In this document: in pieces, positions 1,695 through 20,315 of the stretch
Layout of the letters: each line of letters opens with the position of its first letter
Position numbering within the stretch: the stretch's first letter is position 1
From: a virus
Virus record (IMG/VR): IMGVR_UViG_3300030102_004025
Location: 3,278-24,788 of that record
Reading direction: 5' to 3' (one strand)
DNA length: 21,511 bases
Notes under the pieces: generated by a model
The model's database searches: none
What the model saw: only the letters and a program-made list of their open reading frames with translations
Told to the model about the DNA's origin: nothing
Program-made: the position numbers and the translations under genes

Positions 1695-2073
1695 GATTAC
1701 CTTTGTGTGACGGTGCCTCCCAATCTTCTGGTTTTACTAAGTCTGGTACTCCAAGCGGATTAGGTCTTGTTGATTTTTTACCAACTGACTTTTGCATATT
1801 TGCTTTTAATACTTCGTCCCATGCTTTATATGGGTCAACACCATAAGCATCTAGTGTACCAATTGCAACAACACATAAATCAATAAGACCATCAACTATT
1901 TCTTCAGGATCTTTTACTATGTGTGCTTCTCTAGTTTCATCTAATTCTTCTTGTAAAAATTCAATACGAAACTTTAAAAACTCTCTAAGCTTATCAGGAT
2001 TATTCTCAACCCATTCACGAGTTTCATATTTCGTTTGCATATCATATATGTCTTTTACCCAATCTTTACTCAT
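1672..2073 (-). CDS. MazG-like / phosphoribosyl-ATP pyrophosphohydrolase-like NTP pyrophosphatase
   Basis: A 133-residue all-alpha NTP pyrophosphatase-type protein. The metal-binding helices are visible: FLQEELDETREAH (E42, E43, E46) and PEEIVDGLIDLCVVAIG (E57, E58, D61), the EExxE...ExxD arrangement of the MazG/HisE superfamily. A conserved tail with N..K..G.KSTRPN...DLVKPEDWE.P follows, which I know from phage members annotated as phosphoribosyl-ATP pyrophosphohydrolase-like. The likely reaction is hydrolysis of a nucleoside triphosphate to the monophosphate plus pyrophosphate. Phage MazG has been linked to altering (p)ppGpp or to nucleotide recycling; which applies here cannot be told. Its ATG overlaps the stop of the upstream Sm-like gene by one base (TAATG), implying translational coupling. 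Confidence 0.8.
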   Translation of the reverse strand: MSKDWVKDIYDMQTKYETREWVENNPDKLREFLKFRIEFLQEELDETREAHIVKDPEEIVDGLIDLCVVAIGTLDAYGVDPYKAWDEVLKANMQKSVGKKSTRPNPLGVPDLVKPEDWEAPSHKGNHGKFNDI

Positions 2074-2348
2074 TAGCTAAGTACCTTTCCATCTGGTACA
2101 ACGATTCCTGAATCCATTTGTCTAATTTGATTTACCATATCTTCAATAGGTTCTACTATAAACATAATAAACTCATTACCAATAGTAATACCGTCTTTTG
2201 CTTTAGTATAGGCCATGAATGGCATAAATCCAATTTTACCTTCTCCAGCTGGAATTAATGTATACCCATTTTCTATTATAACAGAATTTTCGGTCTCTGT
2301 TACTTTACCGATAATTTCCTCACCTGAGGACAATCTAACTAATTTCAT
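2073..2348 (-). CDS. Small Sm/SH3-barrel-like protein (paralogue A)
   Basis: About 91 residues, beginning MKLVRLSSGEEIIGKV. The in-frame ATG four codons upstream (2360) is less likely: the sequence GGAG lies six bases before the 2348 ATG, and only about four bases of leader would precede the 2360 ATG. The protein is a run of predicted beta strands: KLVRLSSGEEIIGKV, VIIENGYTLIP, IGFMPFM, then IGNEFIMFIVEPIEDMVNQI. A 'kL.sGeEIig.V' opening with a central P..I strand suggests an Sm-like or SH3-like barrel. It resembles the 132-residue protein at 17408-17806 (L..GdEIvalV, I.E.P.vv, F.P...f..AK, I....hI...P) and is probably its paralogue. It is the first gene of a unit with its own early-type promoter. 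RNA binding would be a guess. Confidence 0.65.
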   Translation of the reverse strand: MKLVRLSSGEEIIGKVTETENSVIIENGYTLIPAGEGKIGFMPFMAYTKAKDGITIGNEFIMFIVEPIEDMVNQIRQMDSGIVVPDGKVLS

Positions 2349-2370
2349 TTTTTTCTCCATAGTTATATAT

Positions 2371-13706: not shown

Positions 13707-13735
13707 ATTATACCATAGTCCAAGCATAATGTAAA
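13707..13735 (-). promoter_or_regulatory. Early-type promoter P5 (CobT-like gene)
   Basis: TTTACA (13735-13730), 17 bases, TATAAT (13712-13707), TGG extended -10, minus strand, with the TTTTTTCA upstream tract shared with P4. Confidence 0.9.
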
Positions 13736-16537: not shown

Positions 16538-16701
16538 AAACCAGCTCTAGCTTTCCTCATCGCTCGTTTGTACTTTAATGACATCTCGCGATAATATTGT
16601 TTTAGATATGCTCTTTTAGCTTTACGTTTAATTTGTTTTGCAAAGAGTTTCTTTCGTCTTCTCTCAGCTCTTAATAATTGTTTAGTTGTTAATTTTTTCA
16701 T
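16534..16701 (-). CDS. Small highly basic 55-residue protein
   Basis: A 55-codon frame links gp55 and gp47: its ATG shares one base with the gp55 stop (TAATG) and its TGA overlaps the gp47 ATG by four bases. The product begins MKKLTTKQLLRAERRRKKLF and is almost all Lys, Arg, Ala, Leu, Gln and Tyr, with about 20 basic residues and very few acidic ones, predicted helical. Such composition fits a nucleic acid-binding peptide or a basic helix binding an acidic partner. T4 has other small genes in the 55-47 interval, but I see no recognisable match. The perfect double overlap makes it a confident gene of unknown function. Confidence 0.72.
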   Translation of the reverse strand: MKKLTTKQLLRAERRRKKLFAKQIKRKAKRAYLKQYYREMSLKYKRAMRKARAGL

Positions 16702-17258
16702 TACATAAATAGTTCTAGTTTTTCTTTTTTCTTTTCTTCTTTTTTAAATACCTTAATAGCTTCGTCTTTAGTTCTTACTTGACTAATTCGTTGTCTTAAA
16801 GTATCTACATAAGCCATAGTCTCTTGAGCTCCTGCGTCGTCCATACCCATTTGAGTAAAGTCTTCAATACCCATTTTTTCAATAAACTTAAACTTGATAT
16901 CTTGTTGTCTTTTCTCTTTAGTAATTCTACGTATAAAAGCGAAATAACAAATTTGTGTAAAATAAGAAAACGCATTTGGTTTACCTGTTCTTGTAGCTGT
17001 TTCGATTTTATAATTACCGATAGCTCTTAAACAGTTTTCCACTGCATCCATAACCATTTCTTCACGATAAGTATACCTCACGAAGTTCGGTCTGTGGGAC
17101 AGGCCTTCTGCAATTTTGATAAAACATCTTGCGATATAATCAGTTACTTTTGGTAACTCTTGTTCTTTAGAACGAGCTTCCTGGACTAACAATGCATAAT
17201 CATACACTGCTTGAGAAAACTCTTTATTGTTTACATAATGTGCTTTATTTTTAGCCAT
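16701..17258 (-). CDS. 55: Late-transcription sigma factor (gp55-like)
   Basis: A 185-residue protein, the same length as T4 gp55. The N-terminus has YVNNKEFSQAVYDYA and IAEGLSHRPNFVRYTYREEMVMDAVENCLRAIGNY, matching T4 (YVNNKELLQAI; IAEGLSKRFNFSGY...EMIADGIE). A central FSYFTQICYFAFIRRITKEKR corresponds to the sigma region 2-like helix that recognises TATAAATA. The C-terminal tail KKEKLELFM is short and hydrophobic, like the T4 gp55 clamp-binding end. It redirects host RNA polymerase to late promoters such as those at hsp20, the cobT-like gene, gp19 and the 72-residue gene. It is headed by promoter P6 with GGAGGA before the ATG. Confidence 0.94.
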   Translation of the reverse strand: MAKNKAHYVNNKEFSQAVYDYALLVQEARSKEQELPKVTDYIARCFIKIAEGLSHRPNFVRYTYREEMVMDAVENCLRAIGNYKIETATRTGKPNAFSYFTQICYFAFIRRITKEKRQQDIKFKFIEKMGIEDFTQMGMDDAGAQETMAYVDTLRQRISQVRTKDEAIKVFKKEEKKKEKLELFM

Positions 17259-17282: not shown

Positions 17283-17311
17283 ATTATACCACAGTTTACT
17301 TAAAATGTAAA
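17283..17311 (-). promoter_or_regulatory. Early-type promoter P6 (gp55-gp47-gp46 unit)
   Basis: TTTACA (17311-17306), 17 bases, TATAAT (17288-17283), TGG extended -10, minus strand. A leader of about 18 bases with GGAGG precedes the gp55 ATG. It stands back to back with P7. Confidence 0.9.
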
Positions 17312-17345: not shown

Positions 17346-17374
17346 TTTACATATGTGAAAAAGTATGGTATAAT
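17346..17374 (+). promoter_or_regulatory. Opposite-strand promoter P7, reading antisense to the 132-residue gene and uvsW
   Basis: On the plus strand TTTACA (17346-17351), 17 bases, TATAAT (17369-17374), with TGG extended -10: the same design as the seven minus-strand copies, including the TTTTCACTCTAGC upstream tract of P4 and P5. Its start point near 17381 would place a G-rich run (GGGGGGAGGGG, 17387-17397) at the head of the RNA. No plus-strand gene is convincing downstream, and every gene to the right is on the minus strand, so the product is probably an antisense or small RNA. Confidence 0.75.
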
Positions 17375-17407
17375 AATATAGTATCCGGGGGGAGGGGAAT
17401 ATACAAA

Positions 17408-17806
17408 TTAATGTATAGTCTTAGGAACATCAGGTTCCACGTCCACACCGTCGTCCGAATACTTTTCAATCAACTGTTGTTCATATTCCTCAAGTATTTC
17501 CTGTTCAGAACGCTGTCTCTCAGGAACAGACTGTCTAGCTGACAATGCCAACTTTACATAACTTTCCTTAGCTACATCTGAAATAGGAACATGCTGAATC
17601 ACATGATCTTTTAGTATTTTAAACATTTTAGCTTCTGAGAATGGAAACCATGGAGAAAACTGATAGGCCCCTAGAATATTTGATGATACTACTAATGGTC
17701 TTTCCAGAATCCAATTGTTGTCGTTTTTCACTGATACTAGTGCGACAATCTCATCTCCATTAACGAGTTTAAAATGTCTAATATTTAAAGATTGAATATC
17801 TTTCAT
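17408..17806 (-). CDS. Sm/SH3-barrel-like protein (paralogue B), late-expressed
   Basis: A 132-residue protein. The first 75 residues carry strands IRHFKLVNGDEIVALVSV, WILERPLVVSS, YQFSPWFPFSEAKMFKI and HVIQHVPISDVAKESYVKLAL, similar in order and key residues to the protein at 2073-2348 (L..GEEI..V; P; F.P; I....I...P..D). The last 40 residues are acidic and helical (EQEILEEYEQQLIEKY). T4-like phages outside the marine group lack an obvious counterpart. It lies between uvsW and gp55. An exact TATAAATA ends six bases before the ATG and no Shine-Dalgarno is visible, so a leaderless late mRNA is likely, although read-through from uvsW is also possible. Its 3' end faces antisense promoter P7. Confidence 0.7.
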   Translation of the reverse strand: MKDIQSLNIRHFKLVNGDEIVALVSVKNDNNWILERPLVVSSNILGAYQFSPWFPFSEAKMFKILKDHVIQHVPISDVAKESYVKLALSARQSVPERQRSEQEILEEYEQQLIEKYSDDGVDVEPDVPKTIH

Positions 17807-17812
17807 ATATAT

Positions 17813-17820
17813 TATTTATA
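17813..17820 (-). promoter_or_regulatory. Late promoter (TATAAATA) for the 132-residue Sm-like gene
   Basis: Exact TATAAATA on the minus strand, overlapping the uvsW stop codon. Six bases (ATATAT) separate it from the ATG, so by T4 spacing transcription would start at or one base before the start codon. Confidence 0.65.
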
Positions 17821-19318
17821 ACTTATAATCGAATAACTTGTAGTTAAACTTCTCTTTACTGTATATTTTAATTCTTTCTGCTGCGTGTTGTAATGTATAA
17901 TTTTTCTTTGACTTCCAATGTAAATCATCTGCGATATCATAAACTGTAGTATTAATACCATCACCACTTTTTCTTAATCCTCTTCCGATGCTTTGAAGAA
18001 CCCTAATTTGAGACTTACTTGGTGAAGCAAATATGATATTGTGTAAACGCTTAATATTAATACCTGTAGAAAAAGTACCCATGGAAGCAACGATAACGGC
18101 GTCTTTTTGGGTCTCGGTAATCTCACGGATTTGTTCCCTTGTGTCAACATCTGTTTCTCCTGATACATAAAACAACTTTCTATTATTATTTATTCTTTCT
18201 TGTAGCAGAGAATGAAGTGGTTTACCATGTTTTTCTACATATTGAAATAATATTAATGTATTACCATTCTTACATGTTTCATTAGCTAAATTACAAATAA
18301 ATTCGTTTCTTTCTTCATACTTAACTATAAAGTCAAGTTCATCTTGGTATTTTAAACCTGATACTATTTTACATACCTCATCACTATATTTAAGTAAACA
18401 TATTTTAATATCTAATTGTGATAAATCATTATTATCAATAAGTTCTTTAGTTGTGGTTACTTTATACACTGGACCAAATAACCCTTCTAGTACTAACTGA
18501 TGTGTTTGTGATCCATCCAATGTACCAGTTGTACCTATACGAAATCTAGCCTCAGTACATTTTTCCATAATACTTGTTAATGATTTAGCTTTAAAATTAT
18601 GAGCTTCATCACCAATCACCATACCAAAATCTATAAACCAATGTCCTGGTAATTTATATATTGATTGCCAAGTACTAATTAATACTCTTTGTTTTAATCC
18701 AAACTTTTCTTTACCTGAATATATCCTATGACAGTTTTCGTCAACATTCCAATTATCCTTTTCTGAATAGTCAGCAAAATCAGAATACATCTGCTCTACT
18801 AAAGAAGTAGTTGGTACAATTATTAATACGTTTTCATCATAATGATCTAAAAAGTATCTAACAGCTAAATATATGATTAAACTCTTACCAGAAGCTGTTG
18901 GCGATAGTAATAAAGACTTATTATGTGAAATACACTGCGAGAGTGCATCTAATTGGTAATTGCGGGGGGTTATATCACTACCCTTCACAGAAAGGACTAA
19001 TTGGGATAAAAATGAATTTATGTCATGTGTATCTAATTGATATACGGTACTATATTTTTCGCTTTCAACCTCATTTAAGGTATAATTTCTTAATGTGCAA
19101 AACTCCTGTAAGTATTTATGTAATCCACAATATAGAGTTTTCTTTCTCATATCGTATAGACGTATTTTACCATCCCACATACGATTACGGTATGCTGGCA
19201 TAAATTTATAACCAGGTACAAAGAAACAAAAATGTTCTGATAGTTCTTTTTCTATTGAAGGTTCGCATTGAACATGCATGAAGACTTCGTTCTTCTTCTG
19301 TATAGTGATGGATTCCAT
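17816..19318 (-). CDS. uvsW: RNA-DNA and DNA-DNA helicase UvsW
   Basis: A 500-residue superfamily 2 helicase; T4 UvsW has 503. The N-terminal domain (FFVPGYKFMPAYRNRMWDGKIRLYD) matches the UvsW DNA-binding region. Helicase motifs follow: Walker A LSPTASGKSLI (about 138-148), DEAH at about 237-240 (VIGDEAHNF), GTTGTL, and motif VI QSIGRGLRKSGDG (about 437-449). In T4 it unwinds R-loops and Holliday junctions, shifting replication from origin-driven to recombination-driven, and is a late gene. Here it follows uvsY after two bases, so both would be made from early-type promoter P8, a difference from T4. Certain on identity. Confidence 0.97.
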   Translation of the reverse strand: MESITIQKKNEVFMHVQCEPSIEKELSEHFCFFVPGYKFMPAYRNRMWDGKIRLYDMRKKTLYCGLHKYLQEFCTLRNYTLNEVESEKYSTVYQLDTHDINSFLSQLVLSVKGSDITPRNYQLDALSQCISHNKSLLLSPTASGKSLIIYLAVRYFLDHYDENVLIIVPTTSLVEQMYSDFADYSEKDNWNVDENCHRIYSGKEKFGLKQRVLISTWQSIYKLPGHWFIDFGMVIGDEAHNFKAKSLTSIMEKCTEARFRIGTTGTLDGSQTHQLVLEGLFGPVYKVTTTKELIDNNDLSQLDIKICLLKYSDEVCKIVSGLKYQDELDFIVKYEERNEFICNLANETCKNGNTLILFQYVEKHGKPLHSLLQERINNNRKLFYVSGETDVDTREQIREITETQKDAVIVASMGTFSTGINIKRLHNIIFASPSKSQIRVLQSIGRGLRKSGDGINTTVYDIADDLHWKSKKNYTLQHAAERIKIYSKEKFNYKLFDYKL

Positions 19319-19320
19319 GA

Positions 19321-19767
19321 TTAGATTCCGCTAGTAAACTTTCTCCATTCAATCATGTTTTTAATATTTTGATGTCTCCATTTAACATTCTCCATTATTT
19401 CTTTTAGAGTGTCGCATGTTTCTTTAAGGTAATCGATTTTACCTTGTGCTTCTTGTATTACTGGGTCTGAATCATAATAATAATTCATATCGCCTTTTAA
19501 TACAGTAAGACCATTTAAAGGATCATAATCCCACCCTTTTTCATCAATTTCTTCTTGTGTTAACTTGCCGTTATAATGTAGCCATTTGTCTTTAATTAGC
19601 ACTTTAAATTCAGCTTCAGCTTTTTTCAGTTTCATTTTATGAACTGAGTATATTTCTAAATATTTGGAATGTAATTTTGCGGATTCTCTAGAAGATTCAT
19701 CAAGATTCATTTCATCTATCTGCGAATCTTTTTTCCACATTTCTAAGATTTGTTGTAAATTATTCAT
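19321..19767 (-). CDS. uvsY: Recombination mediator UvsY
   Basis: A 148-residue protein (T4 UvsY 137). The pattern MNNLQQILEMWKKDSQIDEMNLDESS...LHSKYLEIYSVHKMKLKKAEAEFKVLIKDKWLHYNGK aligns with the T4 N-terminus (LEDLQEELKKDVFID...LYSKWLNKHSSIKKEMLRIEAQ...LDYYSG). A C-terminal segment IKNMIEWRKFTSGI matches T4 IKHIQDMRAFEAGK. UvsY loads the UvsX recombinase onto gp32-coated single-stranded DNA. Immediate linkage to uvsW, as in cyanophages, supports the call. The ATG lies seven bases after the TATAAT of P8, exactly the spacing seen at gp43, and no Shine-Dalgarno is present, so the mRNA is predicted to be leaderless. Confidence 0.93.
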   Translation of the reverse strand: MNNLQQILEMWKKDSQIDEMNLDESSRESAKLHSKYLEIYSVHKMKLKKAEAEFKVLIKDKWLHYNGKLTQEEIDEKGWDYDPLNGLTVLKGDMNYYYDSDPVIQEAQGKIDYLKETCDTLKEIMENVKWRHQNIKNMIEWRKFTSGI

Positions 19768-19774
19768 AATATAT

Positions 19775-19803
19775 ATTATACCATAGTTTAGTAGAAATGT
19801 AAA
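19775..19803 (-). promoter_or_regulatory. Early-type promoter P8 (uvsY-uvsW unit)
   Basis: TTTACA (19803-19798), 17 bases, TATAAT (19780-19775), TGG extended -10, minus strand. The -35 region lies against the gp19 stop codon. The -10 box to uvsY ATG distance is seven bases, as at gp43. Confidence 0.9.
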
Positions 19804-20298: not shown

Positions 20299-20315
20299 GG
20301 GGCCAGTTTGGCCCC
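20299..20315 (-). terminator. Hairpin after the 72-residue late gene
   Basis: A 7-bp inverted repeat GGGGCCA / TGGCCCC with a three-base loop just downstream of the stop at 20323. The minus-strand 3' flank (GCAACTATTATAAAT) has only a weak U tract, whereas the plus-strand flank (ATTTGTTTT) is U-rich, so it might also stop antisense RNA. Confidence 0.55.

Follow-up and report, generated by a model that had tools for sequence, protein, structure and literature searches.

What is a perfect early-type promoter doing on the one strand of a phage genome stretch that carries no identified gene? The question arises from 21,511 nucleotides of a marine T4-like phage (the window, meaning the whole stretch of DNA that was analyzed), taken from a virus record of 24,788 bases. 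Every identified gene of the window lies on the minus strand and the genes match T4-type families, the closest annotated relatives being Kyanoviridae, which include T4-like phages of Synechococcus, Prochlorococcus, SAR11, and Methylophilales. The promoter in question, P7, lies on the plus strand at the junction of two genes, where the following features were found.

16701-17258, minus strand: gene for the late sigma factor gp55, assigned by gene-family match
17283-17311, minus strand: P6, the gp55 promoter as recognized from sequence, divergent from P7
17341-17345, plus strand: AGCTA element preceding the P7 -35 box and common to the minus-strand copies of the promoter family
17346-17351, plus strand: P7 -35 box, TTTACA
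17369-17374, plus strand: P7 -10 box, TATAAT, extended by a preceding TGG and invariant across 52 diverse rows
17381, plus strand: predicted P7 start, a G placed by its spacing from the -10 box, with U coming next
17381-17407, plus strand: conserved non-coding start segment, GTATCCGGGGGGAGGGGAATATACAAA, kin to GTCATCCGGGGAGGATAGAGGTATACTA of relatives
17408-17806, minus strand: gene for a 132-aa Sm/LSm-like protein (T4-GC 139), the putative antisense target, with its stop codon 27 nt past the P7 start

An exact search of the window for TTTACA-N15-GG-TATAAT returned eight copies, seven on the minus strand and P7 as the sole copy on the plus strand, in keeping with the initial annotation. The coordinates, spacing, and predicted start at 17381 given there were all reproduced, as was the back-to-back arrangement with P6, 34 bases separating the -35 boxes (P6 at 17311, P7 at 17346). 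The P7 boxes (17346-17374, plus strand) are divided by a 17-nt spacer that ends in TATGG, and the predicted start G17381 is followed by TATCCGGGGGGAGGGG. TAGCTA also stands ahead of TTTACA at the copy at 13735 and in close relatives. When up to three mismatches to the family promoter were allowed, 23 matches were found against 7.8 expected, and none of 100 shuffles reached 23.

To see how widely the arrangement occurs, gp55 was used as bait and the region upstream of it was read in 80 close, 80 cyanophage, and 160 HTVC008M- or Melnitz-type loci (~280 distinct), with a shuffled comparison covering the window group and the cyanophage group. Of the 74 distinct sequences in the window group, 73 had the whole antisense promoter with at most one mismatch and 70 had it perfect, where the typical best of the shuffles had 2 to 4 mismatches; gp55's own promoter was perfect in 47 of the 74. 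Among cyanophage-type loci all 58 distinct sequences carried the antisense promoter with at most two mismatches (TTGACA-17-TANNNT), while 21 of the 58 sense promoters showed three or more, which is the shuffled level. Many cyanophages have a gp55 without a recognizable promoter of its own and still possess the antisense promoter. In these two groups, the antisense promoter is better kept than that of gp55. It also occurs in most HTVC008M- and Melnitz-type loci, and some of the low-scoring ones were merely mis-registered, with a clear TTGACA...TATAAT downstream (e.g., L422, L426, L441). Cultured phages with the promoter comprise C48C1, HTVC008M, S-SM1, S-ShM2, and S-SRM01, and a weaker version (TTGCTT-17-TATATT) was recognized by eye in Melnitz.

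The full element was found once per contig, or twice in the one tandem case (L059), the remaining hits per contig being promoters in gene direction without the start segment. In S-SM1, the junction element was the sole strong antisense promoter found; a supposed second element in C48C1, at 104667, turned out to be an ordinary gene promoter. The initial annotation had asked whether close relatives lose P7 and keep the minus-strand copies, and the comparison gave the opposite result. On this sequence comparison, a P7-type promoter at the Sm-like/gp55 junction is family-wide in Kyanoviridae, occurring in nearly all of the ~280 loci, and is not due to chance, and its conservation makes it close to certain that P7 is a functional promoter. 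An ncRNA of importance to these viruses is therefore very probable.

The promoter holds a steadier distance to one neighbor than to the other. Median distances from the P7-type start to the stop codon of the Sm-like gene were 29 (IQR 27-30), 20, and 25 nt in the three groups, whereas the individual distances from the start to gp55 ranged over 110-328, 61-108, and 36-265, with greater variation than the former in the window group and in the HTVC/Melnitz types. An additional ORF lies between P7 and gp55 in L032, and in L059 the promoter and start segment, along with part of the 3′ end of the Sm-like gene, are repeated in tandem within the stretch 140-361 bases upstream of gp55. In one clade, the element lies in antisense orientation at the 3′ end of gp4, the head-closure gene (L104:3696-4163 onward; L556-L563, L573-L575, L582), although it was absent from most gp4 loci examined. 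The gp4 copies retain the start segment unchanged opposite a different gene; the segment is therefore separable from its antisense target and the element is not tied to the Sm-like gene.

We then considered what P7 might produce. The only in-register ORF on the plus strand is 17411-17542 (43 aa). Its counterparts in relatives range from 1 to 81 codons and are not conserved in sequence, and a plus-strand ORF was ruled out as the product, which bears out the initial view that no plausible protein follows P7. A scan of about 45 loci over about 3 kb revealed no conserved terminator on the P7 strand; the same scan recovered the other-strand (late) gp23 terminators in most of those loci. A terminator-like hairpin, GGGGCCAGTTTGGCCCC, is present in the window at 20299-20315 (plus strand), ahead of the tail tube gene, but was rejected as the RNA end, as it is missing from nearly all relatives and only L011 has a similar one at equal distance. 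Nothing in Rfam reached the curated gathering score, and a literature search, with many subscription journals outside its coverage, found no report of this promoter or transcript. Unless it is blocked, P7 would with high probability yield a non-coding RNA. Codons overlapped by the predicted RNA showed little extra synonymous constraint, with a mild dip over the final 36 codons for the window group and none for the cyanophages; such constraint is not needed by cis-antisense, yet its low level lends that reading no support.

Conservation beyond the promoter was confined to the start of the predicted RNA. In the window group, the first 25-30 nt were conserved (GTCATCCGGGGAGGATAGAGGTATACTA in many relatives), beyond which similarity fell to background level, and this segment is antisense to no gene. 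When part of the motif was used for scanning, 81 of 120 hits stood behind such a promoter and the other 39 occurred in unrelated sequence. Start segments diverge strongly between groups: that of the cyanophages is AACACTGTAAGGGTTCAAG, while the HTVC/Melnitz types have an inverted repeat centered on the start (AGGC-ATGT-GCCT, AACGG-TGT-CCGTT, CCCTA-TG-TAGGG). Common to the groups is a G at about seven bases past the -10 box, mostly as GU. Positions 7-8 read GT in 35/48, 31/34, and 41/96 sequences, with TG (register ±1) in 37/96, whereas the gene-direction promoters in these phages carry AT, TT, or AA there.

Covariation of the repeat arms was assessed by dealing the right halves among sequences in 400 deals. 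The arms of the HTVC/Melnitz dyad around +1 covary (4.2 observed vs. 1.8 dealt; z 7.5; 0/400), and a weaker covariation of a 3-5 bp hairpin was seen in the window group (z about 2.7; 0 to 2 of 400). Arm covariation was absent from the small cyanophage set in the same test. Single-sequence folding energies, including that of the window's own hairpin, were no better than those of shuffles; the case for structure is therefore one of covariation, and no stable hairpin is claimed in the window phage. Just past the antisense -10 box in L390-L549, the repeat arms vary between relatives yet remain complementary. Since the HTVC/Melnitz dyad straddles the predicted start, it cannot sit wholly in an RNA begun at the G, and it may belong to the open complex. 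Conservation of this kind suggests that the start segment serves a purpose of its own, beyond what simple antisense requires.

The gene facing P7 is labeled 'methylamine utilization' in cyanophage annotations. Its S-SM1 orthologue matched Pfam Sm_like (PF16243) with an E value of 4.6e-47, the window protein itself only with 0.062, and the family profile matched 3by7 with 2e-9. An AlphaFold2 model of the 132-aa protein (pLDDT 82) found its best structural match in 3BY7 (Z 14.3, rmsd 1.3 over 81 residues), followed by eukaryotic and archaeal Sm/LSm chains at Z of about 7-8. From the model, the product is identified as having an Sm/LSm (Hfq/LSm) fold, which it has in common with the Sm-like protein of metagenomic origin represented by 3BY7 and PF16243. 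Unlike 3BY7, the window protein carries an additional tail, helical and acidic, whose last residues are T-I-H. This tail (17408-17450, minus strand) is acidic and variable with a conserved T-I/V/L-H end, likewise in HTVC008M and Melnitz, and the end is possibly a C-terminal binding motif, judging from its sequence. A 95-aa protein encoded elsewhere in the window (2073-2360, minus strand), which falls in PHROG 527 as does the Sm-like gene and has a family promoter at 2399, may be a second Sm-like protein.

Further along the path of the predicted RNA, three more features bear on when the opposing genes are expressed.

17813-17820, minus strand: TATAAATA, a late promoter motif of T4 type that precedes the Sm-like gene, by sequence
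17816-19318, minus strand: uvsW helicase gene, assigned by gene-family match, a putative second antisense target
19775-19803, minus strand: early-type promoter ahead of uvsY-uvsW, by sequence, convergent with P7

Late-type boxes (TATAAATA) numbered nine on the minus strand of the window and none on the plus strand. The initial annotation had called the 132-residue gene late and, noting that uvsW of T4 is translationally blocked early, proposed an early antisense RNA over a late gene as a phase switch. The late-type box of the 132-aa gene agrees with this, but uvsW need not be purely late here, given the early-type promoter at 19803-19775, from which early convergent transcription is expected. 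For P7, the promoter type is the one feature in the window that suggests early timing. In T4, early expression of UvsW is thought to be harmful, and a brake on uvsW is thus plausible. The T4 brake is a structure over the ribosome site, whereas here it would be an antisense promoter, and to our knowledge T4 does not have this gene order. The specific proposal of a phase switch on a late uvsW was not demonstrated: uvsW stands behind its own early-type promoter, the predicted RNA has its own conserved 5′ segment that is antisense to no gene, and the distance of P7 is fixed to the end of the Sm-like gene, not near the ribosome site of uvsW, which an antisense RNA begun at the 3′ end would need about 2 kb to reach. 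What stands of the antisense proposal is a real, selected antisense promoter and, very probably, an ncRNA made from it that would run opposite the 3′-terminal part of the 132-aa gene and uvsW.

We favor, at somewhat less than even confidence, the interpretation that P7 is the source of an early-phase ncRNA, most likely for cis-antisense control of the Sm-like/uvsW transcript. P7 does point into the Sm-like gene from the opposite strand, as expected of cis-antisense. As we envisage it, a sigma-70 promoter selected throughout Kyanoviridae would, in early infection, give rise to an RNA that is not translated. Beginning with GU, this RNA would first comprise a short segment that is not antisense, with covarying structure around the start site, before entering the coding strand of the Sm-like gene and, presumably, of uvsW. 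As long as host sigma-70 is active, this RNA or the polymerases making it would oppose expression of the Sm-like protein and UvsW, and the brake would be lifted when sigma-70 promoters are off. The start segment may protect the ribosome-free RNA or control how the promoter fires.

Among the alternatives, an appreciable though minor probability attaches to a small regulatory RNA whose active part is the start segment, through protein binding or trans pairing, with an incidental antisense body. The appeal of this reading lies in the restriction of conservation and covariation to the first 20-28 nt, the start segment, and in the retention of the segment in the gp4 clade, where the antisense gene changes. 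The protein partner could possibly be the Sm-like ring from the opposite strand, in line with the Sm/LSm fold encoded there, or another protein. Against this, a short RNA with an intrinsic terminator, as looked for in Hfq/LSm-associated sRNAs, was not recovered from the terminator scan, the start segments differ strongly among groups, folds of single sequences do not surpass shuffles, and no complementarity above chance was found inside the window. That a portable RNA element and the Sm-like ring protein of the opposite strand form a virus-borne sRNA/LSm pair ancestral to Kyanoviridae is distinctly doubtful.

It is rather unlikely that the act of transcription matters and not the RNA, whether P7 polymerases collide with those of uvsY-uvsW-Sm or of late genes and so insulate gp55, or divergent firing of P7 aids P6 through supercoiling. 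The location of P7 at the border between the uvsY-uvsW-Sm block and the gp55 block, the convergent uvsY promoter, and the lack of conservation in the RNA body would suit such a role. It leaves the conserved start segment unexplained, however, and is at odds with the many cyanophages that retain the antisense promoter and have no recognizable gp55 promoter, as well as with a distance held to the Sm-like stop and less to gp55.

An R-loop replication origin, at which the promoter and a G-rich start RNA prime DNA synthesis beside uvsW, appears quite improbable. R-loop origins of T4, e.g., ori(uvsY), have a promoter near uvsY/uvsW and a nascent RNA able to form an R-loop, which T4 UvsW dissolves, and P7 resembles ori(uvsY) in its location near these genes and in an RNA that could form an R-loop. 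The single full element per contig, the G-rich start segment of the window group, and the start-site dyad of the HTVC/Melnitz types would also be compatible with an origin. Unlike ori(uvsY), P7 is of the sigma-70 early type; no switch in GC skew or fourfold-site skew was found at the junction in C48C1, S-SM1, G002, or HTVC008M, in a test weakened by the one-sided gene orientation; G-richness is not common to all groups; and the gp4 copy shows mobility. A small plus-strand protein begun at an ATG behind an AGAGG ribosome site is scarcely credible, and is refuted for most relatives, since, although many of them have a GAGG-like motif with an ATG or GTG a few bases further, the ATG distance varies along with ORF length and sequence, and the apparent start codon is simply the conserved His codon at the C-terminus of the Sm-like protein, read in reverse complement.

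The cis-antisense interpretation finds its nearest known phage counterpart, so far as the account of it in PMC5931967 goes, in CfrI, an antisense RNA over psbA in cyanophage S-PM2 that was detected as RNA (cited in PMC5931967). Going by that account, CfrI and the predicted P7 RNA are both non-coding antisense RNAs of T4-like phages on the 3′ side of a gene. By the same account, CfrI belongs to a single phage and involves psbA together with a homing endonuclease gene, whereas P7 is a family-wide feature of the Sm-like/gp55 junction and brings a conserved start segment with it; for CfrI the RNA itself has been seen, and the P7 transcript is predicted from sequence. Antisense RNAs of phages as such are known; here, we describe a family-wide antisense RNA promoter that faces an Sm-like gene and has a covarying element at its start site. 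A family-wide promoter without a protein product suggests that regulation by RNA has gone unrecognized where the uvsY-uvsW block meets the gene for the late sigma factor. It also offers a biological setting for an Sm-like protein whose PDB entries are 3BY7, of metagenomic origin, and the designed nanoparticle TIP60. In HTVC008M (KC465899), two more antisense promoters, both with an extended -10 and no mismatch in either hexamer, were observed inside genes, at 19426 and 23535 (minus strand).
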